Source: Mycolicibacterium pulveris (GTDB lineage Bacteria; Actinomycetota; Actinomycetes; Mycobacteriales; Mycobacteriaceae). From it: 64,000 bases of DNA. Position numbers and translations under genes: made by a program. This document shows, one piece after another, positions 7,971-47,259 of the stretch (positions within the stretch are counted from its first letter, which is position 1; every line of letters begins with the position of its first letter). The DNA lies in assembly GCF_010725725.1 (NCBI RefSeq), contig NZ_AP022599.1:3286001-3350000 (forward strand), read 5' to 3'. The notes beneath the pieces are model-generated. The model saw only the letters and a program-made list of their open reading frames with translations. It did not search any database and was not told the origin of the DNA.

Positions 7971-9356
7971 GTGGTGACCCAACCACGTGATCTACCCCGT
8001 ACCGTCGGCGAACTGAGGGCCTCCGGCCACCGCGAACGGGGCGTGAAGCAGGAAATCCGGGAAAACTTGCTGGCCGCTCTCGGCGAGGGCCGCGACCCCT
8101 GGCCGGGCATCCTCGGGTTCGAGGACACCGTGATCCCGCAGCTGGAGCGGGCCTTGATCGCCGGCCACGACGTCGTGCTGCTCGGCGAACGCGGCCAGGG
8201 CAAGACGCGGCTGCTGCGCGCCCTGACCGGTCTGCTCGACGAGTGGACGCCGGTCATCGAGGGCGCCGAGCTCGGCGAGCACCCGTACAGCCCGATCACC
8301 CCCGAATCGATCCGGCGCGCCGCCGACTCGGGTGAGGACCTGCCCGTCGTGTGGCGCCACCGCAGCGAGCGCTACACCGAGAAGCTGGCCACCCCCGACA
8401 CCAGCGTGGCCGACCTGGTCGGCGACATCGACCCGATCAAGGTGGCCGAGGGCCGTAGCCTCGGCGATCCCGAGACCATCGCCTACGGGTTGATCCCGCG
8501 CGCCCACCGCGGCATCGTCGCCATCAACGAGCTGCCCGACCTCGCCGAGCGCATCCAGGTGGCGATGCTCAACGTGATGGAGGAGCGCGACATCCAGGTC
8601 CGCGGCTACACGTTGCGATTGCCGCTCGACGTCCTCGTGGTCGCCAGCGCGAACCCCGAGGACTACACCAACCGCGGCCGCATCATCACACCGCTGAAGG
8701 ACCGGTTCGGCGCCGAGATCCGCACCCACTACCCACTGGCGCTCGACGCCGAGGTCGGCGTCATCAAACAGGAGGCCCAGCTCTCGGCCGAGGTCCCCGA
8801 ATACCTGCTGGCGGTGTTGGCGCGGTTCGCCCGCTACCTGCGCGAGTCCCGGTCCATCGACCAGCGCTCGGGTGTCTCGGCGCGGTTCGCGATCGCCGCC
8901 GCCGAAACCGTCGCCGCCGCCGCGCGGCACCGCTCGGCGCTGCTCGGCGAGGAGGATCCGGTGGCCCGGGTGGTCGACCTGGCCACGATCATCGACGTGC
9001 TGCGCGGCAAGCTCGAATTCGAGACCGGTGAAGAGGGCCGCGAACAAGCGGTGCTCGAGCACCTGCTGCGCCGGGCCACCGCGGACACCGCGCAGCGCGT
9101 GCTGGGCGGCATCGACGTCGGTCCGCTGGTGGTCGCGATCGAGAACGGGTCGGCGATCACCACCGGTGAGCGGGTGTCGGCGCGCGAGGTGCTGGCCGCG
9201 GTGCCCGAGGTGCCCGCGATCGCCGAGATCCAGACGCGGCTCGGCGCGACGACCGACGGGCAGCGCGCCGCCGCCGTCGAGTTGGCGCTCGAGGCGTTGT
9301 ATCTGGCCAAGCGAATCGACAAGGAGTCCGGAGAAGGCGAAACCGTTTATGGCTAA
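7971..9356 (+). CDS. MoxR/Mg-chelatase-type AAA+ ATPase (Rv0958-like)
   Basis: 461 aa from GTG 7971 (GTG 7974 is an equally plausible start). Walker A is GERGQGKT (residues 72-79) and the Walker B-like strand is GIVAINEL (181-188), followed by VVASANPEDYTNRGR (sensor region) and a C-terminal lid. Such ATPases usually work with a von Willebrand A-domain partner as a chaperone or metal-insertion machine, and the next gene encodes exactly that, overlapping this one by 8 nt. It is annotated in mycobacteria as a magnesium chelatase subunit, but no chlorophyll or B12 genes are nearby, so that name should not be taken as function. Confidence 0.9.
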   Translation: MVTQPRDLPRTVGELRASGHRERGVKQEIRENLLAALGEGRDPWPGILGFEDTVIPQLERALIAGHDVVLLGERGQGKTRLLRALTGLLDEWTPVIEGAELGEHPYSPITPESIRRAADSGEDLPVVWRHRSERYTEKLATPDTSVADLVGDIDPIKVAEGRSLGDPETIAYGLIPRAHRGIVAINELPDLAERIQVAMLNVMEERDIQVRGYTLRLPLDVLVVASANPEDYTNRGRIITPLKDRFGAEIRTHYPLALDAEVGVIKQEAQLSAEVPEYLLAVLARFARYLRESRSIDQRSGVSARFAIAAAETVAAAARHRSALLGEEDPVARVVDLATIIDVLRGKLEFETGEEGREQAVLEHLLRRATADTAQRVLGGIDVGPLVVAIENGSAITTGERVSAREVLAAVPEVPAIAEIQTRLGATTDGQRAAAVELALEALYLAKRIDKESGEGETVYG

Positions 9357-11325
9357 ACGGACGTCGCGGTATTCGCGGTACACCGGCGGGCCCGACCCGC
9401 TGGCGCCGCCGATCGACCTGCGCGAGGCGCTCGAACAGATCGGTCAGGACGTCATGGAGGGCAGCTCGCCTCGGCGCGCGCTGTCCGAGATGTTGCGACG
9501 CGGCACCAAGAACATGCGCGGCGCCGACAAGCTGGCGGCCGAGGCCAACCGTCGGCGTCGAGAGCTGTTGCAGCGCAACAATTTGGACGGCACCCTGCAG
9601 CAGATCAAGAAACTGCTCGACGACGCGGTGCTGGCCGAACGCAAGGAACTGGCCCGTGCGCTCGACGACGACGCGCGGTTCCAGGAGATGCGCATCGAGA
9701 ACCTGCCGTCGTCGCCGGCCAAGGCCGTCCAGGAACTCGCCGATTACCAGTGGCGCAGCCCGGAGGCACGCGAATCCTATGAGCAGATAAAGGATCTGCT
9801 GGGCCGCGAGATGCTCGACCAGCGGTTCGCCGGGATGAAGCAGGCGTTGGAGAACGCCACCGACGAGGACCGGCAGCGGGTCAACGACATGCTCGACGAC
9901 CTCAACGACCTGCTCGACAAGCACGCCAGGGGGGAGGACACGCCGCAGGATTTTCAAGACTTCATGGCCAAGCACGGCGAGTTCTTCCCGGAGAACCCGC
10001 AGAACGTCGAGGAGCTGCTGGACTCGTTGGCCAAGCGGGCCGCCGCCGCGCAGCGGTTCCGCAACAGCCTGTCCGCCGAGCAGCGCGCCGAGCTGGATGC
10101 GTTGGCGCAGCAGGCGTTCGGCTCGCCATCGCTGATGAACGCGTTGAACCGGCTGGACGCGCACCTGCAGGCCGCCCGGCCGGGGGAGGACTGGACCGGT
10201 TCGGAACGGTTCTCCGGCGAGAACCCGCTAGGGATGGGTGAAGGCGCCCAAGCGCTCGAGGACATCGCCGAGCTCGAACAGCTCGCCGAGGCGCTGTCCC
10301 AGAGCTACGCCGGCGCGACGATGGAAGACGTCGACCTGGACATGCTCGCCCGCCAACTCGGCGAGGAGGCCGCCGTCGACGCCCGCACCCTCGCCGAACT
10401 CGAGCGGGCGTTGATGGACCAGGGCTTTCTGGACCGCGGCTCCGACGGGCAGTGGCGGCTGTCGCCCAAGGCCATGCGTCAGCTCGGCCAGACCGCGTTA
10501 CGGGATGTGGCGCAACAGCTTTCGGGTCGGCACGGCGAGCGGGAGACTCGGCGTGCCGGCGCGGCCGGTGAGCTCACCGGGGCGACGCGGCCGTGGCAGT
10601 TCGGCGACACCGAGCCGTGGAACGTCACCCGCACGCTGACCAACGCGGTGCTGCGCCGCGCCGGCTCGGGCGCCGCGACGCTGCCGATGGACATCACCGT
10701 CGAGGACGTCGAGATCTCCGAGACCGAGACCCGCACGCAGGCCGCCGTCGCGCTGCTGGTGGACACCTCGTTCTCGATGGTGATGGAGAACCGGTGGCTG
10801 CCGATGAAACGCACGGCGCTCGCGCTCAACCATCTGGTCAGCACACGGTTCCGCTCAGATGCGTTGTCGATCATCGCATTCGGCCGCTACGCGCGCACCG
10901 TGACCGCCGCCGAGCTCACCGGCTTGGAGGGTGTCTACGAGCAGGGCACCAATTTGCATCACGCGCTGGCCCTCGCTCTGCGGCATCTGCGTCGACACCC
11001 CAACGCCCAGCCGGTGGTGCTGGTGGTCACCGACGGTGAGCCGACCGCGCACCTCGAGCACTATCCCAGCGAGGAGGGCGGACCCGCGGTGTTCTTTGAT
11101 TACCCGCCCCATCCGCGCACCATCGCCCACACGGTCAAAGGCTTCGACGACGTGGCCGGCATCGGCGCGCAGGTGACGATCTTCCGGCTGGGCAGTGATC
11201 CCGGTCTGGCGCGGTTCATCGATCAGGTGGCACGGCGGGTGGAGGGACGCGTGGTGGTGCCGGACCTCGACGGGTTGGGCGCCGCGGTCGTCGGCGACTA
11301 CCTGCGTTCTCGGCGGCGCCGCTAA
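9349..11325 (+). CDS. VWA-domain partner of the AAA+ ATPase (Rv0959-like)
   Basis: 658 aa from ATG 9349, inside the end of the ATPase gene (8-nt overlap, translational coupling). The N-terminal ~430 residues are charged and helical with many Asp/Glu/Gln stretches. The C-terminal third is a von Willebrand A domain with MIDAS motif LVDTSFSM (DxSxS) and a later VTDGEPTAH loop. By analogy with MoxR-VWA and BchI-BchD pairs, the VWA protein couples ATPase remodelling to a client protein; the client is unknown. The frame is open upstream to 8872 only because of GC bias. Confidence 0.88.
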   Translation: MAKRTSRYSRYTGGPDPLAPPIDLREALEQIGQDVMEGSSPRRALSEMLRRGTKNMRGADKLAAEANRRRRELLQRNNLDGTLQQIKKLLDDAVLAERKELARALDDDARFQEMRIENLPSSPAKAVQELADYQWRSPEARESYEQIKDLLGREMLDQRFAGMKQALENATDEDRQRVNDMLDDLNDLLDKHARGEDTPQDFQDFMAKHGEFFPENPQNVEELLDSLAKRAAAAQRFRNSLSAEQRAELDALAQQAFGSPSLMNALNRLDAHLQAARPGEDWTGSERFSGENPLGMGEGAQALEDIAELEQLAEALSQSYAGATMEDVDLDMLARQLGEEAAVDARTLAELERALMDQGFLDRGSDGQWRLSPKAMRQLGQTALRDVAQQLSGRHGERETRRAGAAGELTGATRPWQFGDTEPWNVTRTLTNAVLRRAGSGAATLPMDITVEDVEISETETRTQAAVALLVDTSFSMVMENRWLPMKRTALALNHLVSTRFRSDALSIIAFGRYARTVTAAELTGLEGVYEQGTNLHHALALALRHLRRHPNAQPVVLVVTDGEPTAHLEHYPSEEGGPAVFFDYPPHPRTIAHTVKGFDDVAGIGAQVTIFRLGSDPGLARFIDQVARRVEGRVVVPDLDGLGAAVVGDYLRSRRRR

Positions 11326-35043: not shown

Positions 35044-35119
35044 GGGGCTATGGCGCAGTTGGTAGCGCGACTCGTTCGCATCGAGTAGGTCAGGGGTTCG
35101 ATTCCCCTTAGCTCCACCA
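35044..35119 (+). tRNA. tRNA-Ala (anticodon CGC), CCA encoded
   Basis: A 76-nt cloverleaf. Acceptor GGGGCTA pairs with TAGCTCC. The D arm contains GCGCAGTTGGTAGCGC. The anticodon stem ACTCG/CGAGT has loop TTCGCAT (anticodon CGC, reading GCG). The T arm is AGGGGTTCGATTCCCCT, then A-CCA at the end. The 3' half is the attachment site of the following prophage remnant and remains intact. Confidence 0.95.
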
Positions 35120-35130
35120 CGATTGGGCAG
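35078..35130 (+). repeat. attL: 53-bp direct repeat, tRNA 3' half plus 11 bp
   Basis: Identical to 45011-45063. It starts in the anticodon loop (GCATCGAGTAGGTCAGGGG), runs through the T arm and CCA and 11 bp beyond (CGATTGGGCAG). Typical of tyrosine-integrase insertion that restores the tRNA. Confidence 0.93.
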
Positions 35131-35151: not shown

Positions 35152-35838
35152 TCATCGCTTCGAGCCAGTCCGCAGCTGGTCCGCAGCAGATTTGATTGCC
35201 GCGTCGAGATTGTCCGCAACGATGTCCAGATCGTCGTCGAAAAAGTCGGCGTAAACGTCGAGCGTCATCGACGCCTTGGCGTGGCCGAGCATCCGTTGCA
35301 CCGCTTTGACATTCGCGCCCGCCGATACCGCAAGGCTCGCCGCAGTGTGCCGCAGATCGTGGGGAGTGATCGATGGGAATGTGTCGTCGGCCTTCTGGCA
35401 GACCTTCACCGCGGGCCCGAACACACGCGCGCGGTAGTTGGAATTGCGCAGCACGCCGCCGCGCATATCGGTGAACACCAGCGCGTCGCGGGCATTGCCG
35501 GCCATCAGCGCCGCGAGCTCGTCGGCCAGCGACGCAGGGAACGGCACCGAGCGACGCTCCCACGTCTTCGGAGTGCTCCACACCAGGCCGCCCGACTCGG
35601 TGACCGAACGCGACACGTTCACCCGGCGCCGCAACATATCGAAGTCCTGCACGCGCAGCGCCGCCATCTCACCCCACCGAAGGCCGGTATAGGAGAGGAA
35701 TCGGACAACCTCGGGATGGCGGTCGACGGCCCCGGCGAGCGCCGCAACCTGCGCATGGCTCAGATAGCCACGGTCAGCGTGCTTGCGTTTCGGCAGCTTC
35801 ACACCGTCGCACGGGTTGCGCGGGATCCGGCGGCGGGC
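35152..35838 (-). pseudogene. Tyrosine integrase, N-terminally truncated
   Basis: Homology runs from about RRIPRNPCDGVKLPKRKHAD to the stop at 35152, i.e. the catalytic domain only (~228 residues). All catalytic residues are visible: Arg in TGLRWGEMAAL, Lys in TPKTWERRS, His-Arg in ITPHDLRHTAASLA, His in MLGHAKASM and the Tyr nucleophile in LDVYADFF. The N-terminal arm- and core-binding domains (~150 aa) are missing. Beyond ~35838 the frame runs antisense into tape-measure sequence, marking a deletion joint. The open frame to 36051 is therefore not a real N-terminus. Confidence 0.85.
35165..35188. repeat. Left integrase arm-type site (tandem 11-bp repeat)
   Basis: AGTCCGCAGCT (35167-35177) is followed directly by GGTCCGCAGCA (35178-35188), sharing GTCCGCAGC. 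The whole 24-bp block recurs at 44882-44905 near attR. It overlaps the 3' end of int. Paired 11-bp direct repeats flanking the core are the form of arm-type sites in mycobacteriophage tyrosine integrase systems. Confidence 0.6.
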
Positions 35839-37454
35839 AGTCGTTGGCCGACCGCGCAGCCGGCATTCCTGGCTTGTGGGGGCTGGTCGGATCGCTGAAC
35901 AGTTCCAATCCCACTGAGAACCTCGCCAACTGGGGCAACAACACGATCGACTGGCTGGGTAACTTCGCCGCCGGCGCGGTGACCCGGCTCGGCACGTCGC
36001 TGTGGAAGGGTGCGCTCGGCCTCGTCGGCCTCGAGAACAGCATCCTCTCACCCGACAACGAGTGGTTTCAGGCCGCGGCGAAGTCGGCGGGGTTCTTCCT
36101 CGGCAACGACGGCCCGTTCGCCACGCTGCTCGGCCAGCCAGGCGACGCGACCTCAGCGACGAAGGCGGCGACGCCGAAGCAGTTACGCGAAGGCCAGGAC
36201 CGCATCACCGACAAGGACAACGCCGTCGCCGTTGCGTTGGCCCGGCTCAACGAGCTACCGGCGGATGCCAAGGAATCGCAGCGACTCTCGGCGCAGAACG
36301 CGCTCGACAAGGCTCGCCGCGAGGCCGAACAGGCCCGCACCGACTACGCGGCACTGACCAGCGGCGGCGCAGCCACCACGGGTTCGACGGGCCAACTCTC
36401 CTACGAGATGTTGCCGTCGATCGGGTCACGCGGCAGCGAACGCGGCCTGCAGGTCAACACACTCACGACCGCGCGGGCGATCGCCGCGACGTTCCCACAG
36501 ATCCGCGAGATCGGCGGATACCGCCAAGATCCGCTGAAGTGGCACCCCAACGGTCTGGCGATCGACGTGATGATCCCGAACTGGGACACACCGCAGGGCA
36601 AGGCGCTCGGCGACCAGATCTATTCGTTCGTCATGGGTCACGCCGACACGCTCGGCATCGACCGCTCGGCGACGCTGTGGCAGGTCAAAGACCACTTCAA
36701 CCACCTACACATCGCCACCACCGGCGGCGGCTACCCGGCGACCCACGACATCGGCGGCCGGGTTCCTCCCGGCCTGTCTGTGGTGTCGAACCAGACCGGC
36801 GGCGACGAGTACATCCTCAACCGGCCGCAGGCGATGGAAGCAGCCGCCGCGCTCGAGGCGCGACGCATCCTGCCGACCCCGCCGCCGCGGCCCGGCGGAT
36901 TCCAGCAGGTGCCTGACGCGCACCTCAAGCAGATCCCCGGCGGTGAACGCATCGCGCCATCAGGGCCGGCAGAACCGGCCCCGGCGCCAGGCGCTCCGAG
37001 CGAACCGACGCCGACGATTCCGCACGGCCCAGCACCGGGCGCGGGACCGGCGCCGTCGATCGCAATCCAGCCCACGGTGGCGCCGCCGCCCGGCGGCGGC
37101 GGGGGAGGCGGGAACAACAACCACCCCGCGCTGAACCAGGCGATCTCGTCCGGTGCGGCCACGCTGGGCAACCTCGCCTCAACTGCCGCGAGTTTCGGGC
37201 TGGGCGGTGGCCCGCTCGGCGGGGCGGCCGGATCGCTGATCAGCGGCCTGTTTCAGCAGGGCGGCAAGATCGCCCAAGGCGTCGCGAACGTCGCGAGTTC
37301 TTTCCTGATCGGCAACGTCACCGGCGGCACCACCCCCGAGGCGTACGGGCGCACGCTGCGCTCACGCCAGAACGTGCCCGTCACCGCGGCCGACCGAGGC
37401 GGCAACAAGAGCTACATATTCAACGGCATCAGCGACATCGGCAGGCTCACATAG
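35823..37454 (+). pseudogene. Tape measure protein, 5'-truncated, with embedded peptidase-like domain
   Basis: The frame reads continuously from the int junction (GSGGGQSLADRAAGIPG, TTG at 35844 is the first start-like codon) to TAG 37452-37454, ~540 aa. The full gene would be several times longer. An aliphatic region (WGLVGSLNSSNPTENLANWG) and a coiled-coil stretch (DALKEAEQAR-like LDKARREAEQARTDYAALTS) come first. Next is a domain with HPNGLAIDVMIP and DHFNHLHIATTGGG, matching metallopeptidase-like cell-wall domains often built into mycobacteriophage tape measures. A Pro/Gly-rich tail follows with a final GGNKSYIFNGISDIG. The start was lost in the same deletion that broke int. Confidence 0.85.
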
Positions 37455-37825: not shown

Positions 37826-38102
37826 TGCAGCTAAGGAGTGTGACACCGTGCCCGAAATCGAGCTGACGAACGTGGCCCCGGCCGGAGTGGAGCAGTGGCC
37901 CACAGGAGTCGGGTTGGGTGTGCAGTACCACGACGGTCCGCCGGGGCCGAACGGCACCGCGAACACGTTCGTCGTCACCGATCGAATCATCGGCGGCCGC
38001 GCCATCGAACCGACCGGCCATTCGATTGAAGGCCGCGCATCCGTCGACTACGGCCATCGGCCAGAGCAGCACGTCGTTGAGGTGACTAGCTGTACTCAGC
38101 CA

Positions 38103-39062
38103 TCAGGTTGGTCGCAGTCGGCTGATGGGTGGTAGTCCCTGGAGTGCGCTGTGGCGGCGTTGAGTGTTGTAGAACTCGACCCAGGGTGCAAGGGCTTGGG
38201 TGCGGTCGGCGTTTGAGGCGAACACCCGGCGATATGACCATTCGCATTGCAGTGTGCGGTTATAGCGCTCCACCTTGCCGTTCTGCCATGGGCAGTGCGG
38301 CTTGATGAACAGGTGTTTGGCGTGCAGCTGGTCAATGACGGCGGCCACGTGTGCTGAGCGTCGATAGCTCAGATGGTTGTCGGTGATCACGCGTTCGATG
38401 TGCGAAATGCCCTGTGATTGAAAGTAGCGCGCCGCGCGAGCGATGAACTCGGCACAGGTCGGTCCTTTTTCATCGGCATGGATCTCCGAGTACGCGAGCC
38501 GGCTGTGATCATCGACCATCGAGTGGACATAGTCATAGCCGATGCCGCGTCCGCGGACCTCTTCGCTGCGCCCGTGAGCGCGCCACCCGCCTCCGTCAGG
38601 GATGCGGCCGAGTTTCTTGACATCGACGTGGACCAGTTCACCAGGATGGTTGCGTTCATACCGCCGTGTGGTGGCCTTCGATGCCTTGATCACCGCGCCG
38701 GTCATTGGATCGCAGTCACGCAGGTAGGGCACATTTCGGCGCCGCAGGATTCGTCCGACGGTGCGCGCGGGCAGCCCGAGCTGGGGGCCCAGCCAGTCCT
38801 GGCCCCGACGATGCTTGCGCCGGGCAGCGATCACCTGACGCTCCACGCGCGCTGACGCCTTTGTCGGGCAGTGGTGCGGTCGTGAGGACCGATCGTGCAA
38901 TCCGGCCTCGCCTTCAGCGGCGTAGCGGCTGATCCAGGTGTGAACACACTTGCGCGAGATACCCATCGCCGCGGCGATGTGTGCCTGTTTCCACCCTTGT
39001 TGGTGGCGCTGCACGATCAGCATCCGGCCGTGCAGCGTGGTGCGGGCATTACCGTGGGACAC
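38103..39062 (-). CDS. IS481-family DDE transposase
   Basis: 319 aa from GTG 39062 (SD GGAGG; GTG 39101 is an upstream alternative). The N-terminal helix-turn-helix has WKQAHIAAAMGISRKCVHTW and the second HTH is LPARTVGRILRRR. The integrase-core DDE domain has Asp in LVHVDVKKLG, Asp in ERVITDNHLSYR and Glu in NGKVERYNRTLQ. The last residues fall inside the left IR region. The SD is inside a 14-bp inverted repeat that may block translation of read-in mRNA. Confidence 0.93.
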   Translation of the reverse strand: MSHGNARTTLHGRMLIVQRHQQGWKQAHIAAAMGISRKCVHTWISRYAAEGEAGLHDRSSRPHHCPTKASARVERQVIAARRKHRRGQDWLGPQLGLPARTVGRILRRRNVPYLRDCDPMTGAVIKASKATTRRYERNHPGELVHVDVKKLGRIPDGGGWRAHGRSEEVRGRGIGYDYVHSMVDDHSRLAYSEIHADEKGPTCAEFIARAARYFQSQGISHIERVITDNHLSYRRSAHVAAVIDQLHAKHLFIKPHCPWQNGKVERYNRTLQCEWSYRRVFASNADRTQALAPWVEFYNTQRRHSALQGLPPISRLRPT

Positions 39063-39120
39063 GAGAACCTCCGGGTTAGCGATGGGCCTTCGACAAGCCA
39101 CACCTCACCCGGAGGTTCTC
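39063..39120 (-). promoter_or_regulatory. RBS-sequestering inverted repeat in the IS leader
   Basis: GAGAACCTCCGGGT (39063-39076) and ACCCGGAGGTTCTC (39107-39120) are perfect 14-bp arms with a 30-nt loop. In the transposase mRNA the Shine-Dalgarno GGAGG lies in the downstream arm, directly before GTG 39062. Transcripts entering from outside would fold and hide it; a transcript starting within the loop would not. The alternative GTG 39101 lies in the loop. Confidence 0.65.
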
Positions 39121-39996
39121 CTCACATCAAGCCAACACGCCTGCTACCAACGTCATGACCGGGTACAACTAGCGCCCCACTCATCACGCACGTCACTGTG
39201 TGGCCCGCCGTAGCTCCATGGTCGTTCTGGTCTGCCGAGCTTGCGTCTCCGGTGCAGGCGGAGCCCGGCACGATTCTGCGGATGGACGCGACCACCGGAA
39301 TGCTCGACGTGACGCCGGTGCCTGGCGATCCGACCTATGTGCCGGTCGCCTCGACGTATCCGACGGGCGTGTTCGTCAACTGGGGCATCGGCTTTGAGGT
39401 CGACGGCGCCGCCGTGATCCGTGAGCTGGACTCCGGCGGCGTCGAGGGTGACACCTATGGCGGGGGTGTATATCAGACGGCGATGGCCACGCTGCGGCAC
39501 CGGGTACTCGTTACCGCGGCGAACGCGGCCAGTGGCGGCAACAACCGCGGCATGGGCGGCGGCGTGCACGGCTCCGACGCCAGCTTCACCGACGGCGTGT
39601 TCTTCACCATGGACTCCGGCGCCAGCAGCGGCGGCTGCCAGATCTTCCACAAGAACGGCGCCACCATCACGCCGGTCGGGACGGCCACCGACGACGACAA
39701 CGACGACAACGACACCCTCGAGCTGCGCCCAACACTCACGGCTGGAGTGTGGACGTACACCGTTTACCGGAACGGCAACCCGACCGCGTGCGCCTGGACC
39801 GACAGCAGCAACGCCGCGACGCCCGGCCTGTACACGTGCTTCGCCTTCCAGCACCGCCGCGCCGGCGGACTCGAGTTCTACAGCAACGGGCTACGCGACT
39901 TCACGGCGGAGGACTTCTAGCAGCTAGAGTCGCACCAAAAGGCTGAGCGTTACTCTAGGCGGGCTGCCGATCAGCGACTGCAGAGGGGCTCCCAGT

Positions 39997-41538
39997 ATGG
40001 CCGTCATCCCTGACGGACGCGTCGACTACGACAAGCTGCTCGAGCTGTTGCTTGAAACCGAGGAAAACCACCTCGATTTCAAATCAGGTGTCGACCTCGA
40101 CGACAACGCAGATCGGCTGAAGCTGGTCAAGGACATCGTCACGATGTCCAATCGTCCTCCCGGCGGCTACATCCTAATCGGCGTCACTAACGACGGAAAG
40201 CCGTGCATGTCACAGGGAACCATCGCTGACCGCCGCGAGTTCGACGGCGCCAAGCTCGGCGACCTCGTGAGGCGCAACATCGAAGGCCAAGTCAACGTCC
40301 GCACGGTTGTACACGACCATGACGAATACGAGATCGTCCTGATCTTCGTCGAGCACTCGGGACTGCCAGTTCCGTTCAGCAAGCTCGGCCAGCACCCTGA
40401 TCCTTCGCTTCCCGACAAGCAGATCGTGATTTTCCGACCGGGCGACATATTCGTACGTGAGGGCGCTCAAAACGTCCCCATTCGAAACGCACACTGGCCA
40501 GATCTGCTGTCTGCCTACACCAAGCGGATTCGCGACGAGGCGGGAGACCTAGCCGAGACGGTCATGCGCGAGTTCATCAGCCAGTTCCGCCAGCATCCGA
40601 CGGGCGCCCCCGCGGAGATTCCGCTGCTTTGGGATATGGACGAAGCGACATTTACCGATGCGGTGGTGGCCATGATAGAGGCGAAAAACGATGTGCGGCT
40701 TCGTCAGTTCCTCCGCACACTCCGGAAGTATGTCAACGCTAGTAGCACGCTCGAGGACTGCGAGATGGCACTGGACAGATGGGCCATCTTTTGTGCGCAG
40801 GCGACGATTTTCGAGCGCGACGACTTGACGGGCAACGCGATCGCCGCACTATTCGACGCCTACCGCGAGCTGGGCGCTGGCCCCGATCTGACACGAAAGC
40901 GCCTAGCGGTCGTCATCCGGATCTACGCCATCGGCAGCCTGGCGGTGCGCATGGCAGCATGGGAGACGGTGCATTCCTTGGTGCTTCGGCCGGTGCCGTC
41001 GACTCCGTTCGACAACAGCTGGGTCTACTCCTCTTGGATTCGCCACGCGCAAGTAGAGGCCAGCCGCGCGGGCCTCATCAAGGATGACCGGGGCGGATTC
41101 TTGATCTCAGCAGCGCGCGAACTGATGATGAACCAACCGGGAATGCGCCCGGATATCGGCGATGATGAAATCCCGCCCCGGGACGAAGTCACGGCAAATG
41201 ACGTTCTCCTCAACACGTTGTGCGAATTCGACATCGCCTATTGTCTCGTCGTTGCCGCCGAAGGTACGGGCAAAGGCGCGTTTTACGCCTCTTCCGCCGC
41301 TTTCGACGAGGACCGAGCCAAACCGATGGCACTCAAGATCGTTGAGGATTCGAAAGTGCGGAGACTGCTATTCCCAGCGTCAGACGACGATCGGGTCGGC
41401 GACGCTCTAGCGCTTGTATATCACCGCACGATCAGGGAATCGGCCAACAACTTAGGCGGTCGATGGTGGACGGCACCGCAGGCTGTGATCGAGTTCATCA
41501 ATGACAACGGCGGTCCACGGACCTTCGATGACAGTTAG
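39997..41538 (+). CDS. Schlafen AlbA_2-domain protein, prophage cargo
   Basis: 513 aa from ATG 39997 (GAGGGG 8 nt upstream). The N-terminal ~170 residues match AlbA_2/SLFN domains: LETEENHLDFKSG, then LVKDIVTMSNRPPGGYILIG and VTNDG, and an EIVLIFVEHS strand. The family is a nucleic-acid- or nucleotide-linked domain found in regulators and in several phage-defence proteins. The remaining ~340 residues are helical and charged, with no motif I recognise. GC is visibly lower than in neighbouring tail genes. It sits where lysis genes would be and is convergent with a trypsin-like protease, suggesting acquired cargo. Catalysis is not claimed. Confidence 0.75.
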   Translation: MAVIPDGRVDYDKLLELLLETEENHLDFKSGVDLDDNADRLKLVKDIVTMSNRPPGGYILIGVTNDGKPCMSQGTIADRREFDGAKLGDLVRRNIEGQVNVRTVVHDHDEYEIVLIFVEHSGLPVPFSKLGQHPDPSLPDKQIVIFRPGDIFVREGAQNVPIRNAHWPDLLSAYTKRIRDEAGDLAETVMREFISQFRQHPTGAPAEIPLLWDMDEATFTDAVVAMIEAKNDVRLRQFLRTLRKYVNASSTLEDCEMALDRWAIFCAQATIFERDDLTGNAIAALFDAYRELGAGPDLTRKRLAVVIRIYAIGSLAVRMAAWETVHSLVLRPVPSTPFDNSWVYSSWIRHAQVEASRAGLIKDDRGGFLISAARELMMNQPGMRPDIGDDEIPPRDEVTANDVLLNTLCEFDIAYCLVVAAEGTGKGAFYASSAAFDEDRAKPMALKIVEDSKVRRLLFPASDDDRVGDALALVYHRTIRESANNLGGRWWTAPQAVIEFINDNGGPRTFDDS

Positions 41539-41577
41539 CACTAAGCCGTAGGCGAATCGGCCAAGTCTGACGAGCGG

Positions 41578-42681
41578 TCACTCCGGATTCTCCACTATCG
41601 CAATGCTATTGAACCCCATCTCTTCAATGGCGCGTACGACTTCGCTCGCGGGAATGCCCCGATAAAACGGCGGCGACCCTGATGTGTTCCCAGTGGCGCC
41701 AGCTCCGGCCTGACACAGCCCAGACCGCGTGTGGTCGATGACAAGACCGATCACTCGGCCGTCCTGGGCGACGATCGGGCCTCCGCTATTACCAGGCCGC
41801 TCGATCGCCGACGTCAGGAAGATCTTGTGTCGCGGGTATCCGCCACACGCTGGCGCCTCCGCCGCAGGGTTTACCACGTGGCCGCGCTCCACCGTGATCA
41901 CCTGTTCGGTCGTACCGGCAACATAGGGGTAGCCGAACACACGTACTTCGTCACCCCATCTGGGTTGCCGGAAAACCATGCCCGACAGTGCCGGAACGTC
42001 TTGCTGGTTGCCAAACTCACCCTCGATGACGGCAACGTCTACTTCTGCATGAGCGCGGACAATGCATTGACGCGACACCCATTGCGCGTCGGGCGGTTTG
42101 ACTGCCGGATGAATCTCAATCGCCGCAGTGCCGATATTGTGGCCGAACAGTTCCTCGACTACGTGTCTGTTGGTCAGGATATGCGAGCTGTCTAATACGA
42201 GCCCGGTCCCAGACGGCTTGCCCTCTCCGCCGCTGATCTGAACTGTAACGGCGTTATAGGAGCGGATGATGAGCTCGGGTCCGAGTATCTCTGAGAGCCA
42301 CAGGTTGCCCTTGGTCTGAGGCGATCTCGAGCCCTGCGTGACGTACAGCTGACCTTGCATTGGCACGCCTACCATGTCTGCTCGCCAACCACAGGGCAGC
42401 AGTATGCCGTGGCGCGCCATCTCAGCCAGGATCCGCCCAGTTTCCCAGGCATGGCTTGGGATGCTGAGCTTCTGCAGGTACATGGTGAAGTATGCAACTG
42501 GCCAGGGGCCGGCCCTTCCGGCATCGGCGGGCTGATTGATCGATCGCGCTATTTCCTCGTCATGAACCAGACCGAAGAAGCGATAGGCTGCCCAAGCGAC
42601 TGTGAGCCGCCATTCGAGGCTCCCCGGGACAAGCTCTGCGGCTAGCGGGGTGTCTGGCGGATTTTCACCGGGTTCCGACAT
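41578..42681 (-). CDS. Trypsin-like serine protease with N-terminal helical domain, prophage cargo
   Basis: 367 aa from ATG 42681. Residues ~15-130 form a helical, Trp-rich region with no signal peptide, so the protein is probably cytoplasmic. From ~135 on it is a chymotrypsin-fold protease with all triad residues: His173 (ILTNRHVVEE), Asp215 (HAEVDVAVIEG) and Ser299 (ERPGNSGGPIV). Non-secreted trypsin-like domains occur as effectors in bacterial conflict systems. It is convergent with the AlbA_2 gene (39-bp gap), so the two are neighbours but not one operon. Confidence 0.8.
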   Translation of the reverse strand: MSEPGENPPDTPLAAELVPGSLEWRLTVAWAAYRFFGLVHDEEIARSINQPADAGRAGPWPVAYFTMYLQKLSIPSHAWETGRILAEMARHGILLPCGWRADMVGVPMQGQLYVTQGSRSPQTKGNLWLSEILGPELIIRSYNAVTVQISGGEGKPSGTGLVLDSSHILTNRHVVEELFGHNIGTAAIEIHPAVKPPDAQWVSRQCIVRAHAEVDVAVIEGEFGNQQDVPALSGMVFRQPRWGDEVRVFGYPYVAGTTEQVITVERGHVVNPAAEAPACGGYPRHKIFLTSAIERPGNSGGPIVAQDGRVIGLVIDHTRSGLCQAGAGATGNTSGSPPFYRGIPASEVVRAIEEMGFNSIAIVENPE

Positions 42682-43212: not shown

Positions 43213-43316
43213 GGCACCGACGCTATGCCACCCATGCGACAAAACCGGGCCAGACCTACCGGCGTGGCGACAGTGACGAGCGGCCCTGAACCCACCAGGC
43301 TGCGCACGTCTCTTAC

Positions 43317-43331
43317 ACTGAAGGTGAGCCC
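43317..43331 (+). repeat. Conserved 15-bp leader, copy A
   Basis: ACTGAAGGTGAGCCC, 23 nt before ATG 43355. The same 15 bases occur inverted at 44326-44340, 25 nt before the start of a paralogous gene. It probably marks a shared promoter or translation leader copied with the gene. Confidence 0.65.
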
Positions 43332-43354
43332 GCCTGGCAGGGAGGGGTACGCAG

Positions 43355-43549
43355 ATGCAGTACTTCACCGACGGCACCGGGTTGGTCGCCCGTGTGCTCA
43401 CAGATGCCCCGTTTGGTCGCGAGTTCTCCCGAGCTGAGGTGCAGACTTACAGCGCCAGGCGCGGCATCTGGAAGCCGGCTTCTCCAGGAATGACGACTGG
43501 GCTGCAGTTTGGTGGCGACTGGTCCGAGATCACCGCCGAAGACTTCTGA
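43355..43549 (+). CDS. Small phage protein, YF-DGTG family, paralogue 1
   Basis: 64 aa from ATG 43355 (GGGAGGGG upstream). It starts MQYFTDGTGLVARVLTDAPF and ends GGDWSEITAEDF. It has two homologues on the opposite strand nearby (44115-44300 and 43702-44103). The ending ITAEDF resembles the FTAEDF end of the split tail protein. Function unknown. Confidence 0.7.
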   Translation: MQYFTDGTGLVARVLTDAPFGREFSRAEVQTYSARRGIWKPASPGMTTGLQFGGDWSEITAEDF

Positions 43550-43558
43550 GGCAAGCTG

Positions 43559-43705
43559 GTGACTACGACTGCGCACCGCCCCGGCGACGACAAATATGCC
43601 GCTATGGCCGACAGCTACGAAGCAGAACCGCCCCGCGCGGAGGAAATCACCTCGATCGAGGTGTACCCGCACAGCGGCCGCGCCAACGGCGCCGACGACG
43701 CCTAA
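43559..43705 (+). CDS. Very small phage ORF
   Basis: 48 aa from GTG 43559 (starts VTTTAHRPGDDKYAAMADSY, ends GRANGADDA). It is 9 nt after the stop of the preceding gene; GGCAAGC is a weak SD. Its stop overlaps the stop of the convergent gene. It is acidic and unstructured. A gene by context only. Confidence 0.45.
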   Translation: MTTTAHRPGDDKYAAMADSYEAEPPRAEEITSIEVYPHSGRANGADDA

Positions 43706-44103
43706 CGCTCACCGGGATGCTCACGTAAGTACGCCTGGCGAGCAGGGGAATTGGCGAGCATGTCGTCGAGCATCTTGCGATAGCCAGTCATCCAGGCGAC
43801 GGCGAGACTCCTGCGGCCGCGGTACGGGTTTGGAGTGCCCACTGCGGCGGCCAACCCCTCAGCGTGGACGCGTTTGATCTCGTCCACGCGAGATAACCGG
43901 CGTGCGATCGCCGACTCGGCATCACGTTGCGAGCACGGGTCCCAATCGCCGGTGTACGCGATCTCTGACGTCATGCCTGACCGTTCGACCCAGACGCCGC
44001 GCTTCATGCTGTACACCTCGGCGCGCGCCGTGATGAAGTCCTCGCCGAACGACGCATCGGTGTGCACGCGTACAACGCGATTCCCGTTGCGGAAATAGCG
44101 CAT
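43702..44103 (-). CDS. Small phage protein, YF-DGTG family, paralogue 3 (extended)
   Basis: 133 aa from ATG 44103. The first ~60 residues (MRYFRNGNRVVRVHTDASFG...MTSEIAYTGDWDPC) are homologous to the two shorter paralogues. A ~70-residue helical, basic extension follows (ARRLSRVDEIKRVHAEGLAA). It lies 11 nt after paralogue 2, in one operon with it. Function unknown. Confidence 0.7.
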   Translation of the reverse strand: MRYFRNGNRVVRVHTDASFGEDFITARAEVYSMKRGVWVERSGMTSEIAYTGDWDPCSQRDAESAIARRLSRVDEIKRVHAEGLAAAVGTPNPYRGRRSLAVAWMTGYRKMLDDMLANSPARQAYLREHPGER

Positions 44104-44114
44104 CACGCCCCCTC

Positions 44115-44300
44115 TTAACCGCCTTCGCACTCGCTCCAGTCGCCGCTGAAACGGATCTCGGTCGTCAGGCCGGGGGCGTCCTTCCAGTCGTCCTGTTTGG
44201 CGCTGTAGGTCTGCGCCTGGGCCTGCGAGAATTCGGGGCCGAATGGGGCATCGGTGAGCACGCGGGCAACTAATCCGGTGCCGTCGGTGAAGTACCGCAT
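44115..44300 (-). CDS. Small phage protein, YF-DGTG family, paralogue 2
   Basis: 61 aa from ATG 44300 (GGGAAGGGAG upstream). MRYFTDGTGLVARVLTDAPF differs from paralogue 1 by one residue in the first 20. Its 15-bp leader is also shared. An inverted duplication of gene plus leader explains this. It ends FSGDWSECEGG. Confidence 0.72.
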   Translation of the reverse strand: MRYFTDGTGLVARVLTDAPFGPEFSQAQAQTYSAKQDDWKDAPGLTTEIRFSGDWSECEGG

Positions 44301-44325
44301 CGCCTGCTCCCTTCCCGTTTCCGTG

Positions 44326-44340
44326 GGGCTCACCTTCAGT
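44326..44340 (-). repeat. Conserved 15-bp leader, copy B
   Basis: ACTGAAGGTGAGCCC on the minus strand, preceding paralogue 2 in the same relative position as copy A precedes paralogue 1. Confidence 0.65.
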
Positions 44341-44413
44341 CTAGAAGTGGTGTACCGATCGGGGTAGGAAGCCGCTGGACGGGGGCTGCGCGGTGCCGAC
44401 GGCTAAAAACCCC

Positions 44414-44767
44414 TCAGCGCCGAGCCCATTCGGTCTCGATTGCGGCTTCGATGTCGTCGGCCGCCGCGGTGAGCACCGCGGCGAGCTGACGCGCCTGGCC
44501 CGGTGTCATCACGTCGCCGTCGAGCACCACGAAACGCTCGACAAGACCGTCGTCGGCGTACTGATTGCCATCGACCTGCACGAGCAGGGGCTTTTCTGAG
44601 GGGTCGGCGCGGGACACCTCCCACTTGCTGCCGATGAAGTAGCGCAGCGACCCAGGCTCACCGTTCGACGACTCAAACGCCGGCTTGTCGGGGTGATACC
44701 AGGGCTCCACGCAGACCGCGCCAACGGGCAGCGGGAGATTCTGGCCGGGATTGGCATTACTGTGCAT
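44414..44767 (-). CDS. Small prophage protein, function unknown
   Basis: 117 aa from ATG 44767, with AAGGAG eight bases upstream. It contains VGAVCVEPWYHPDKPAFESS, LLVQVDGNQYADDGLVERFV and a C-terminal helix TPGQARQLAAVLTAAADDIE. The helix resembles the ends of small actinophage proteins measuring variable values (such as dCTP-like folds), but I do not recognise the family. It is the right-most gene inside the element; 44768-45010 contains only the arm-type repeat. Confidence 0.65.
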   Translation of the reverse strand: MHSNANPGQNLPLPVGAVCVEPWYHPDKPAFESSNGEPGSLRYFIGSKWEVSRADPSEKPLLVQVDGNQYADDGLVERFVVLDGDVMTPGQARQLAAVLTAAADDIEAAIETEWARR

Positions 44768-44881: not shown

Positions 44882-44905
44882 CCAGTCCGCAGCTGGTCCG
44901 CAGCA
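44882..44905. repeat. Right integrase arm-type site (tandem 11-bp repeat)
   Basis: The same 24 bp as 35165-35188, i.e. AGTCCGCAGCT followed by GGTCCGCAGCA, 105 bp inside attR. Here it is non-coding, which argues that it is a conserved protein-binding site and not only a copied piece of int. Confidence 0.6.
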
Positions 44906-45010
44906 CACTCGACAACAGCTATCGGGGGCCAACACAGCCAATGCTGTGACCTGCGGGTTAGTGGTGCTGCCAACGCAGCTTGGCGCTGCAAACGCCGAGA
45001 TCGACTCGTT

Positions 45011-45063
45011 GCATCGAGTAGGTCAGGGGTTCGATTCCCCTTAGCTCCACCACGATTGGGCAG
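45011..45063 (+). repeat. attR: 53-bp direct repeat with partial tRNA-Ala
   Basis: Identical to attL. The short flank to its left (CGACTCGTT) also matches the tRNA anticodon stem, but one C of the loop is absent (TTGCAT instead of TTCGCAT), so this half-tRNA could not function. Confidence 0.93.
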
Positions 45064-45582: not shown

Positions 45583-47259
45583 GTGACGGTCTCGATCACC
45601 GACATCCATCGGTGGGATGCGGGCGATGTTCGTGAGGTCTTCCATGCGACGCGCAACCGGGCAGAAGCGGCCTTCGAGGCCGCCGACGGAATCGCCGAAC
45701 TTCCCGCGTTCGGAGGTTGGGGCGGTGACGCGGCCGAAGCCGCGAAGGAAGCCAACGGCCAGATCCGCAAGGACCTGGACGTTCACGGCAACGAGGCGTT
45801 GGTCGTTGCCCGGGCCGCCGCTGCTGCCGCTGATCGAATCCAGCAGGTCAAGAACGATTTGGTTCAGCTGGAGGCCGATGTCGCAGCCGCCGGTTTCGAA
45901 CTCGATCCCGCGAGCAGTACGGTCATGCCTGGACCGGCGCTGGAACACGACATGGTTGCGTTGCTTGCAAAGGAAGCCGAGCGGGAGGCGCTGCAGGCAC
46001 GCCTGAACACCATTCTCGCAGAGGCGGTTTCGGCCGATGAGGAGCTGGCCCGCGCGATCAACATGGCGACCGGCGCGGAGCCGATACCCGACACGCCGCA
46101 CACCAACGATCCCGAACTCCAGGGCGCACTGTCGCGGCCGCTGCCCGAGGACCCGAAGGAGTTCCACGACCTGTGGGAAAAGTTGACGCCGGAGCAGCGA
46201 GAGTGGCTGTACCGACAGGATCCCAACATCGGCAACCATCCGGGCATGCCGTTCGCGGGCGATCACACCGACCCCGGCAGGGACTATTTCAACCGACGGC
46301 ATCTCGGGGAGCTGACGGAAACGGCGCAGGCCGAGGTCGACCGCCTGGCAAGCCAACACCCCGATTGGGCGCGGAGCGGCGACCGGTTCCCGGTATCGGT
46401 CACACCACAGCAGAACGGCCAGTACGCAGACTGGAAACGCCAGTGGGACGCCGCGAACAGCGAGCTCAATGGCTACCACGCGGTATCCGAGACGCTGGCA
46501 CGAAACAACGGCGTGCCGCGCTACCTCGGGTTGCTCGATGACCAAGGGCACGCGGCCGTCTCGATCGGCAATCCCGACACCGCGACGCGGACTGCGACCC
46601 TGGTGCCAGGAACCGGCCAGGATATGGCGAGTTTCGTTGGTAGCGATGGCAAGTCGCTCGATATGTTCAACGCCGCGCTGGACGCCGATCCGAACCTGAG
46701 TGCCGAGGACGTCGCTGTCACGACCTGGATGGGCTATGACCGGCCGATGAATTTGTTCGAAGCAGCGTCTCCGGGCCGTGCAGAAGCGGGCGGCGCTGGG
46801 CTCGACGCGTTCATCGACGGCATGCACGCGTCGCATGAAGGGTGGTTCCCCGCAACGGATACCGTCGTCGGCCACAGCTACGGCTCGACGCTGGTGGGCG
46901 GCGCCAGTAGCGGCGGCAACCATTTGGCAGTCGACAACGTGATCGCGGTAGGCAGCCCCGGCATGCTGGTTGGACATGCGTCCGAAATGAGTCTGGACCC
47001 TGGCGCCCAGGTCTACGCCACCCGAGCGCAGCACGACATCATCCATCTGGTCTCCGGAGCTGCACTGGGCTTGAACCCCACCTGGGACGGATTCGGAGCC
47101 ATCGAGCTGGCGGCCGCACCTGGACCATCGACCGGACCACCCATACTGAACCTGCCGTCTATCGGCGCCCACAGCAGTTACTGGGATGAGGGCAACCCGG
47201 CGCTGGCCAATATGGGTGCGATCATTGTTGGCATGCCGCCACCCGAGGTTGTGCCATGA
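45583..47259 (+). CDS. DUF1023 alpha/beta hydrolase with WXG100-like N-terminus
   Basis: 558 aa from GTG 45583. The N-terminal ~170 residues are helical with FGGWGGDAAEAAKEANGQIR (WxG turn), as in type VII substrates. The C-terminal domain is DUF1023 with nucleophile elbow VVGHSYGS (Ser432), preceded by TWMGYDRP and followed by AVGSPGMLV and HDIIHLVSG (acid/His region). It is probably an exported lipase or esterase acting on envelope lipids, or a toxin. Its stop overlaps the lipoprotein ATG (ATGA). Confidence 0.82.
   Translation: MTVSITDIHRWDAGDVREVFHATRNRAEAAFEAADGIAELPAFGGWGGDAAEAAKEANGQIRKDLDVHGNEALVVARAAAAAADRIQQVKNDLVQLEADVAAAGFELDPASSTVMPGPALEHDMVALLAKEAEREALQARLNTILAEAVSADEELARAINMATGAEPIPDTPHTNDPELQGALSRPLPEDPKEFHDLWEKLTPEQREWLYRQDPNIGNHPGMPFAGDHTDPGRDYFNRRHLGELTETAQAEVDRLASQHPDWARSGDRFPVSVTPQQNGQYADWKRQWDAANSELNGYHAVSETLARNNGVPRYLGLLDDQGHAAVSIGNPDTATRTATLVPGTGQDMASFVGSDGKSLDMFNAALDADPNLSAEDVAVTTWMGYDRPMNLFEAASPGRAEAGGAGLDAFIDGMHASHEGWFPATDTVVGHSYGSTLVGGASSGGNHLAVDNVIAVGSPGMLVGHASEMSLDPGAQVYATRAQHDIIHLVSGAALGLNPTWDGFGAIELAAAPGPSTGPPILNLPSIGAHSSYWDEGNPALANMGAIIVGMPPPEVVP

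Follow-up and report, generated by a model that had tools for sequence, protein, structure and literature searches.

Why would a decayed prophage-like insertion keep two intact genes side by side, and do the two work together? The locus that raises this question lies in a 64,000-nucleotide stretch of the Mycolicibacterium pulveris chromosome (NZ_AP022599.1, positions 3,286,001 to 3,350,000; hereafter the window), taken from a genome assembled as a single contig of 5.48 Mb. Within the window, an element inserted at a tRNA-Ala gene carries one gene for a Schlafen/AlbA_2 protein and one for a trypsin-like protease. A previous interpretation made from the letters alone, which we call the sequence-only reading, proposed that the pair is a candidate defence system carried as prophage cargo. 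Our analysis supports the cargo and argues against the pair. We propose, with a probability of about 0.6, that a decayed prophage-like element in tRNA-Ala keeps two separately acquired, intact cargo genes of anti-phage type that act independently. Loci and genomes used for comparison carry L and G numbers, respectively.

Results

The sequence-only reading placed the two genes in the lysis-gene slot of a prophage. Their position can be stated more exactly: they lie inside a defective element with 9,933 bp between its left and right attachment sites (attL and attR), whose two 53-bp copies match perfectly, and the protease gene sits 2.3 kb from attR (Table 1). Next to attL, homology to the 433-residue integrase of a relative, G387, is limited to 35170-35832, corresponding to residues 192-428 (78% identity, tblastn); tblastn found no homology to residues 1-191 in the window. 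This remnant adjoins a tape-measure fragment, which is followed by an IS481-family element. Based on the truncated integrase, the tape-measure fragment and the IS481 element, we conclude that this is a degraded, prophage-like insertion, which probably cannot be excised by its own integrase. We also considered a phage-inducible chromosomal island (PICI), defined in the accessible part of PMC10654092 by an integrase plus a major capsid gene. This assignment was rejected, since the integrase lacks residues 1-191, a tape-measure fragment stands in place of a capsid, and no major capsid gene was found among the scanned open reading frames (ORFs) of the element with Pfam or PHROG profiles.

Both genes are lower in G+C content than the window (59.5% for the Schlafen gene and 60.7% for the protease gene versus 67.3%) and they are convergent, with 39 nt between their stop codons, as the sequence-only reading described. 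It also recognised an N-terminal AlbA_2 domain in the Schlafen protein; the match to PF04326 is significant (E=1.6e-10, 42 bits versus a gathering score of 25.3), and structure comparison matches the fold of this part to the Schlafen N-domain and the SAMD9 tRNase. The remainder is mostly helical, again as predicted: the structure model (mean predicted local distance difference test score, pLDDT, 91.4) has helices from residue 164 onward and a single beta hairpin at 333-344. Pfam gave no match to a STAND NTPase or an OB-domain in the 513 residues. In SLFN14, E206, E211 and D249 are what we take to be the three catalytic acids. In our alignment, E22 is kept in 84 of 85 rows, position 27 (D27 in the window) is D in 59 and E in 26, and the third acid column, N65 in the window with D66 alongside, is D in 73, N in 9 and E in 3.

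The catalytic triad of the protease, which the sequence-only reading judged intact, is unchanged in all 85 aligned sequences. The N-terminal domain of about 130 residues, described there as helical, does contain helices; however, the model also has a beta hairpin (E94-99, E111-115). This domain has no Pfam match, and Pfam detected the trypsin domain only, with no PDZ match. We found no signal peptide or transmembrane-like stretch by hydropathy (peak 19-residue value of 0.74 in the first 60 residues), in agreement with the sequence-only reading. Among solved structures, its fold comes nearest to those of DegS, Deg1 and HtrA; membership of the HtrA family was rejected on the lack of a PDZ match and of a hydrophobic N-terminus. 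Its relatives are not confined to housekeeping or secreted enzymes: the protein has a full-length family of its own, beside the ordinary trypsin-domain matches present in many genomes. Members occur in records named as pathogenic mycobacteria, annotated with general protease names, and in a literature search we recognised no paper describing the family. At E<=0.001 there are 137 Schlafen and 282 protease homologs, many of them full-length, so neither gene is a chance ORF. Strongly conserved columns are broken at 1 of 76 positions in the Schlafen protein and 1 of 63 in the protease; the means for the 84 other rows are 1.7 and 1.2.

If the two genes formed a unit, they would be expected to travel together. 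A scan of GTDB contigs for the Schlafen family yielded 27 loci, 21 of them full-length or nearly so (L037-L057), and tblastn detected the protease in none of the 21 sets of flanks (up to 10 kb, shorter where contigs end). Among 396 genomes of the genus, counting fragments and broken copies, the Schlafen profile matched 18, the protease profile 26, and both matched three, against 1.2 expected (P=0.11). These three are the window's own genome, G553 (a Schlafen fragment 37 kb from the protease) and G575 (different contigs, weak protease match); only in the first are the genes adjacent. In a sample of 301 genomes from the family, three others matched the Schlafen profile, and none of these matched the protease. 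Co-occurrence is thus not zero, yet no more than chance. We conclude from the empty flanks and the chance-level overlap that Schlafen and protease are not a conserved two-gene unit, contrary to the sequence-only reading.

We next consider the protease family by itself. From the 26 matching genomes we studied 23 loci, omitting the window's own, G305 (a fragment) and G575 (short contig), and leaving out the second protease of G387. In 4 of the 23 relative chromosomal loci a tRNA 3' end is repeated beyond the protease (Table 1). One of these, L134 in G387, shares the tRNA-Ala type of the window and has a 433-residue integrase frame 78% identical to the window remnant and a capsid gene (Phage_capsid_4, 2e-17); its protease lies ~1.2 kb from the far att site. 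Genes clustering with this capsid occur also in L085 (a viral contig), L124 and L136. By sequence, L134 thus has the integrase and major capsid that define a PICI, helper dependence being a separate matter, and the four capsid-bearing protease elements are candidate PICIs under the definition in the accessible part of PMC10654092. With the L134 integrase as query and a density control, integrase pieces were found within 10 kb of the protease at 7 of 23 loci (0.36 expected) and within 20 kb at 13 (0.70 expected); without G387, the source of the query, the 10-kb count is 6 of 22 (0.35 expected). By gene clustering, a cluster-2 (integrase) gene lies near the protease at 9 of 23 loci; this figure was set aside in favour of the 7 of 23, which has the density control. 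In the protease tree, where only 11 of the 23 inner branches have good support, the att-flanked members are spread across deep branches, and hence a single inherited association with elements is unlikely. The family is also found on two Rhodococcus plasmids. We conclude that this actinobacterial family often occupies a cargo position in small satellite or prophage elements integrated at tRNA genes, close to their far att site.

A second context is the Hma defence operon. HmaA is present in 45 of 396 genomes (E<=1e-150), and in four (G358, G544, G587 and G609) the protease lies directly upstream of it in the same orientation, the two matches being 100-130 nt apart; by position, the expected number of such cases is 0.001. 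PADLOC confirmed HmaA and HmaB in G544, and the genes of the other three loci cluster with them. A gene with matches to type IIG/DrmMI methylases precedes the protease at L128, and the two ORFs as called share 4 nt. At ~9196-10313 of L137, in G609, the protease reading frame is split in two and the adjacent HmaA is still open, and for this reason Hma may not need the protease.

The Schlafen family has a different set of neighbours. At three loci (L043, L044 and L055) the Schlafen gene runs into a SIR2 gene that lies downstream of it, and an in-frame ATGA junction is present; the overlap measures between 4 and ~60 nt, as the called SIR2 frame extends further upstream. The SIR2 protein matches the PADLOC candidate PDC-S65 (8e-204), and all three PDC-S65 matches in the 24 genomes searched adjoin a Schlafen gene; the match in the L045 genome contains a stop. 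The 23 genomes searched for LmuB, a Lamassu gene, have two LmuB loci; at one of them, in G376, a divergent Schlafen relative is 139 nt away. Of three loci with the Gabija gene GajA, the one in L047 is ~2 kb from the Schlafen gene, and the only cyclase of a cyclic-oligonucleotide-based anti-phage signalling system (CBASS) found in its search lies ~3 kb from the Schlafen gene in L055. These last three families were picked from the PADLOC tally, so the searches are partly circular. Genes of a TrwC relaxase cluster, Pfam-confirmed in L037, adjoin the Schlafen gene or sit one to two genes away in L037, L043, L046 and L142. In seven loci from Yaniella, Enteractinococcus and a Micrococcaceae metagenome-assembled genome (L050-L054, L056 and L057), a Schlafen relative sits amid shared neighbours, which suggests a stable chromosomal, possibly domesticated copy. 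In L150 (G052, ~9040-10540) a relative was matched as three separate pieces near a tRNA-Val/Gly/Cys cluster and is probably a decayed copy.

Table 1. Positions of the features discussed, in the window unless a locus is named
Feature	Position	Strand	Basis or remark
tRNA-Ala (CGC), attachment site	35044..35119	+	ARAGORN
attL, 53-bp direct repeat copy spanning 3' part of tRNA-Ala	35078..35130	.	100% identical to 45011-45063
Tyrosine integrase, 5'-truncated remnant	35152..36051	-	PF00589 2.1e-20; tblastn with G387 integrase
Tape-measure protein fragment (phage tail)	35844..37454	+	phrog_3547 3.8e-53; blastn to mycobacteriophage tape-measure genes
IS481-family insertion sequence inside element; transposase 38103-39101	38086..39176 (ends approximate)	-	Pfam rve/IS481; similar inverted ends
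Schlafen/AlbA_2 protein, 513 aa: AlbA_2 22-162, then a long linker helix (164-198) and a C-terminal helical domain (208-504)	39997..41538	+	PF04326, structure model, fold matches
Trypsin-like protease, 367 aa: N-terminal domain ~15-130, HtrA-type fold 131-359, triad H173/D215/S299	41578..42681	-	PF13365 8.4e-17, model, fold matches
Small phage-type gene, RMF-like	43702..44130	-	PF04957 1.7e-8; phrog_1757 4.3e-23
Small, possibly phage-type gene	44414..44767	-	phrog_22972 9.4e-4 (weak match)
attR, second 53-bp repeat copy	45011..45063	.	repeat comparison
Protease element L124, tRNA-Pro			~10.5 kb between att repeats
Protease element L134 (G387), tRNA-Ala			~11.6 kb between att repeats
Protease element L135, tRNA-Leu			~6 kb between att repeats
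Protease element L136, tRNA-Asn			~11.5 kb; 22-nt repeat
Schlafen + SIR2 overlap, L043	9998-13299
Schlafen + SIR2 overlap, L055	10106-13290
Schlafen + SIR2 overlap, L044	380-2433

Discussion

Both genes look like defence-type cargo of a degraded prophage-like insertion, as the sequence-only reading held, and each family has mobile and defence neighbourhoods of its own. We suggest that they stand together because the end of the element collects such cargo. The N-terminal domain of the protease would sense, or be recruited to, an infection-specific partner, and, by analogy with what is predicted for other conflict systems, the protease would then cut a phage or host protein and so halt competing phages. 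The Schlafen protein would be an infection-triggered tRNA/rRNA nuclease of the SLFN/SAMD9 kind, its helical C-terminal part providing the sensor or regulator. A more specific proposal for the protease is possible and put forward tentatively: that it is an unrecognised single-gene anti-phage system of mycobacterial satellites, soluble and gated by its N-terminal domain, which protects against competitor or helper phages, has been shuttled between tRNA sites, and was captured beside the Hma operon as an add-on effector.

Several observations weigh against these proposals. No integrase piece lies within 20 kb at 10 of the 23 protease loci, and both proteins are absent from 50,697 phage records. 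The Schlafen family is also unmatched in viral_contigs, and its link to phage therefore rests on the element in the window. At positions 64-65 of the Schlafen protein most relatives carry DD, whereas the window copy reads T64-N65-D66; judged from sequence, its metal site may thus be weakened. The Hma-adjacent proteases are confined to one clade of five, and the adjacency therefore reflects about one capture event; co-presence of protease and HmaA (6 of 396 genomes versus 3.0 expected, P=0.06) is not significant. A PADLOC scan of four window ORFs neighbouring the pair gave no significant defence match. Finally, a set of 105 neighbours of Schlafen loci (out of 155 picked ORFs) matched 128 PADLOC families and a set of 108 neighbours of protease loci (101 out of 166, plus 7 others) matched 84, and a control set of 97 arbitrary ORFs (out of 100 listed) matched 60. 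Given this control, we rejected family tallies on their own as evidence for defence and used named, located systems instead.

The chief rival for the function of the protease is satellite-helper interference, in which the protease serves the element itself, either controlling lysogeny or induction, or, in the manner of satellite interference genes, processing or disrupting the capsids of helper phages. Its recurrence in satellite-like elements with capsid genes favours this explanation. However, the protease also occurs beside Hma, beside a type IIG-like methylase and on the Rhodococcus plasmids, and it is intact in the window although the integrase is truncated; we regard service to the element as doubtful. 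An ordinary HtrA-like stress protease next to a DNA-binding AlbA_2 regulator, or a pair of neutral relics with no defence role, would fit the DegS, Deg1 and HtrA folds and the source annotation of some Schlafen relatives as DNA-binding or regulator proteins. We consider this improbable, given the lack of a PDZ match and a hydrophobic N-terminus, the intact conserved residues, and the sporadic occurrence of both families (26 and 18 of 396 genomes) in mobile and defence contexts. A co-evolved two-component system, for example one in which the protease activates the Schlafen nuclease by cleavage, would account for two adjacent, intact genes in an otherwise decayed element and for the ~38 kb of G553 in which HmaA sits between a Schlafen fragment and the protease, but it is made highly improbable by the distribution described above, by convergent transcription and by the SIR2 gene that the Schlafen gene overlaps elsewhere instead.

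Our preferred reading, two independent cargo genes, invokes kinds of protein that are already known in defence. The preprint 10.1101/2025.07.24.666596, cited in PMC12839542, claims in its title that bacterial Schlafens act against phages; the accessible part of PMC12839542 itself describes Schlafen forms with a fused minimal histidine kinase and wHTH. The window protein shares with bacterial anti-phage Schlafens the AlbA_2/Schlafen RNase-fold domain and the defence contexts; it differs from the forms described there in its C-terminal helical domain of ~300 residues, which belongs to one actinobacterial family. PADLOC PDC-S50 matches residues 13-164 (E=3.4e-7), covering the AlbA_2 part only (profile 8-152 of 387). 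SAMD9/SAMD9L and the bacterial SAMD9 family (PDB 9o0d; PMC5445408, accessible part) have a related tRNase domain; the window protein differs in having no STAND NTPase or OB-domain match.

Likewise, the protease shares a trypsin-like domain joined to a non-catalytic domain with RT-Protease XI, Avs1 and LmuA (PADLOC) and with EAD-trypsin proteins (accessible parts of PMC7159879 and PMC8195603, where trypsin-like domains are predicted as effectors in other conflict systems). It differs in that its matches to those systems are confined to the protease domain and its N-terminal domain is its own. We rejected its assignment to RT-Protease XI, Avs1 or LmuA, because the whole architecture of the model (RT plus protease, protease plus STAND, and LmuA, respectively) was not found; the best stretches cover profile positions 343-485 of 506, 9-110 of 1924 and 7-167 of 425 in the same order. 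Unlike HtrA, DegS and Deg1, it has no PDZ match or visible export signal, and its distribution is mobile. The elements at L124, L134 and L136 resemble the mycobacterial PICIs and phiRv-like elements in the accessible part of PMC10654092 in their att spacing of ~10-12 kb at tRNA genes and in having an integrase and a capsid, both of which are also present in L085; the word "protease" is absent from the main text of that paper. In our literature searches we found no description of mycobacterial satellite-like elements repeatedly carrying this protease family, of its Hma adjacency, or of the Schlafen-SIR2 gene overlap.

How mycobacteria resist phages bears on phage ecology and on phage therapy, and the catalogue of what their satellites carry is not yet complete. 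A protease family found repeatedly close to the att end of satellites, and by Hma in one clade, is a concrete candidate for satellite-encoded immunity; if its function were shown, the reading of protease genes in records named as pathogenic mycobacteria would change. The Schlafen/SIR2 overlap is a two-gene counterpart of the AlbA_2-SIR2 order that is fused in SAMD9 (PMC5445408, accessible part).

Other features of the element

A "tRNA-Cys" call at 44954-45052 overlaps the tRNA-Ala fragment of the attR copy. The IS481-family sequence has a 1.1-kb stretch that is 83% identical in L157. An imperfect inverted repeat (43305-43474 and 44181-44352; 121 nt at 79% plus 27 nt at 81%) flanks the RMF-like gene. 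Immediately inside both att ends lies a 31-nt direct repeat (35165-35195 and 44882-44912, 90%), possibly arm-type binding sites of the integrase. Immediately outside attR, the gene at 45583-47259 carries an Abhydrolase_8 domain and may belong to the ESX-secreted class, reported near mycobacterial phage integration functions in the accessible part of PMC10654092. A Hydro_N_hd + Abhydrolase_8 gene is present in the protease locus L134, and its cluster occurs also in the protease loci L085, L121, L124 and L140.
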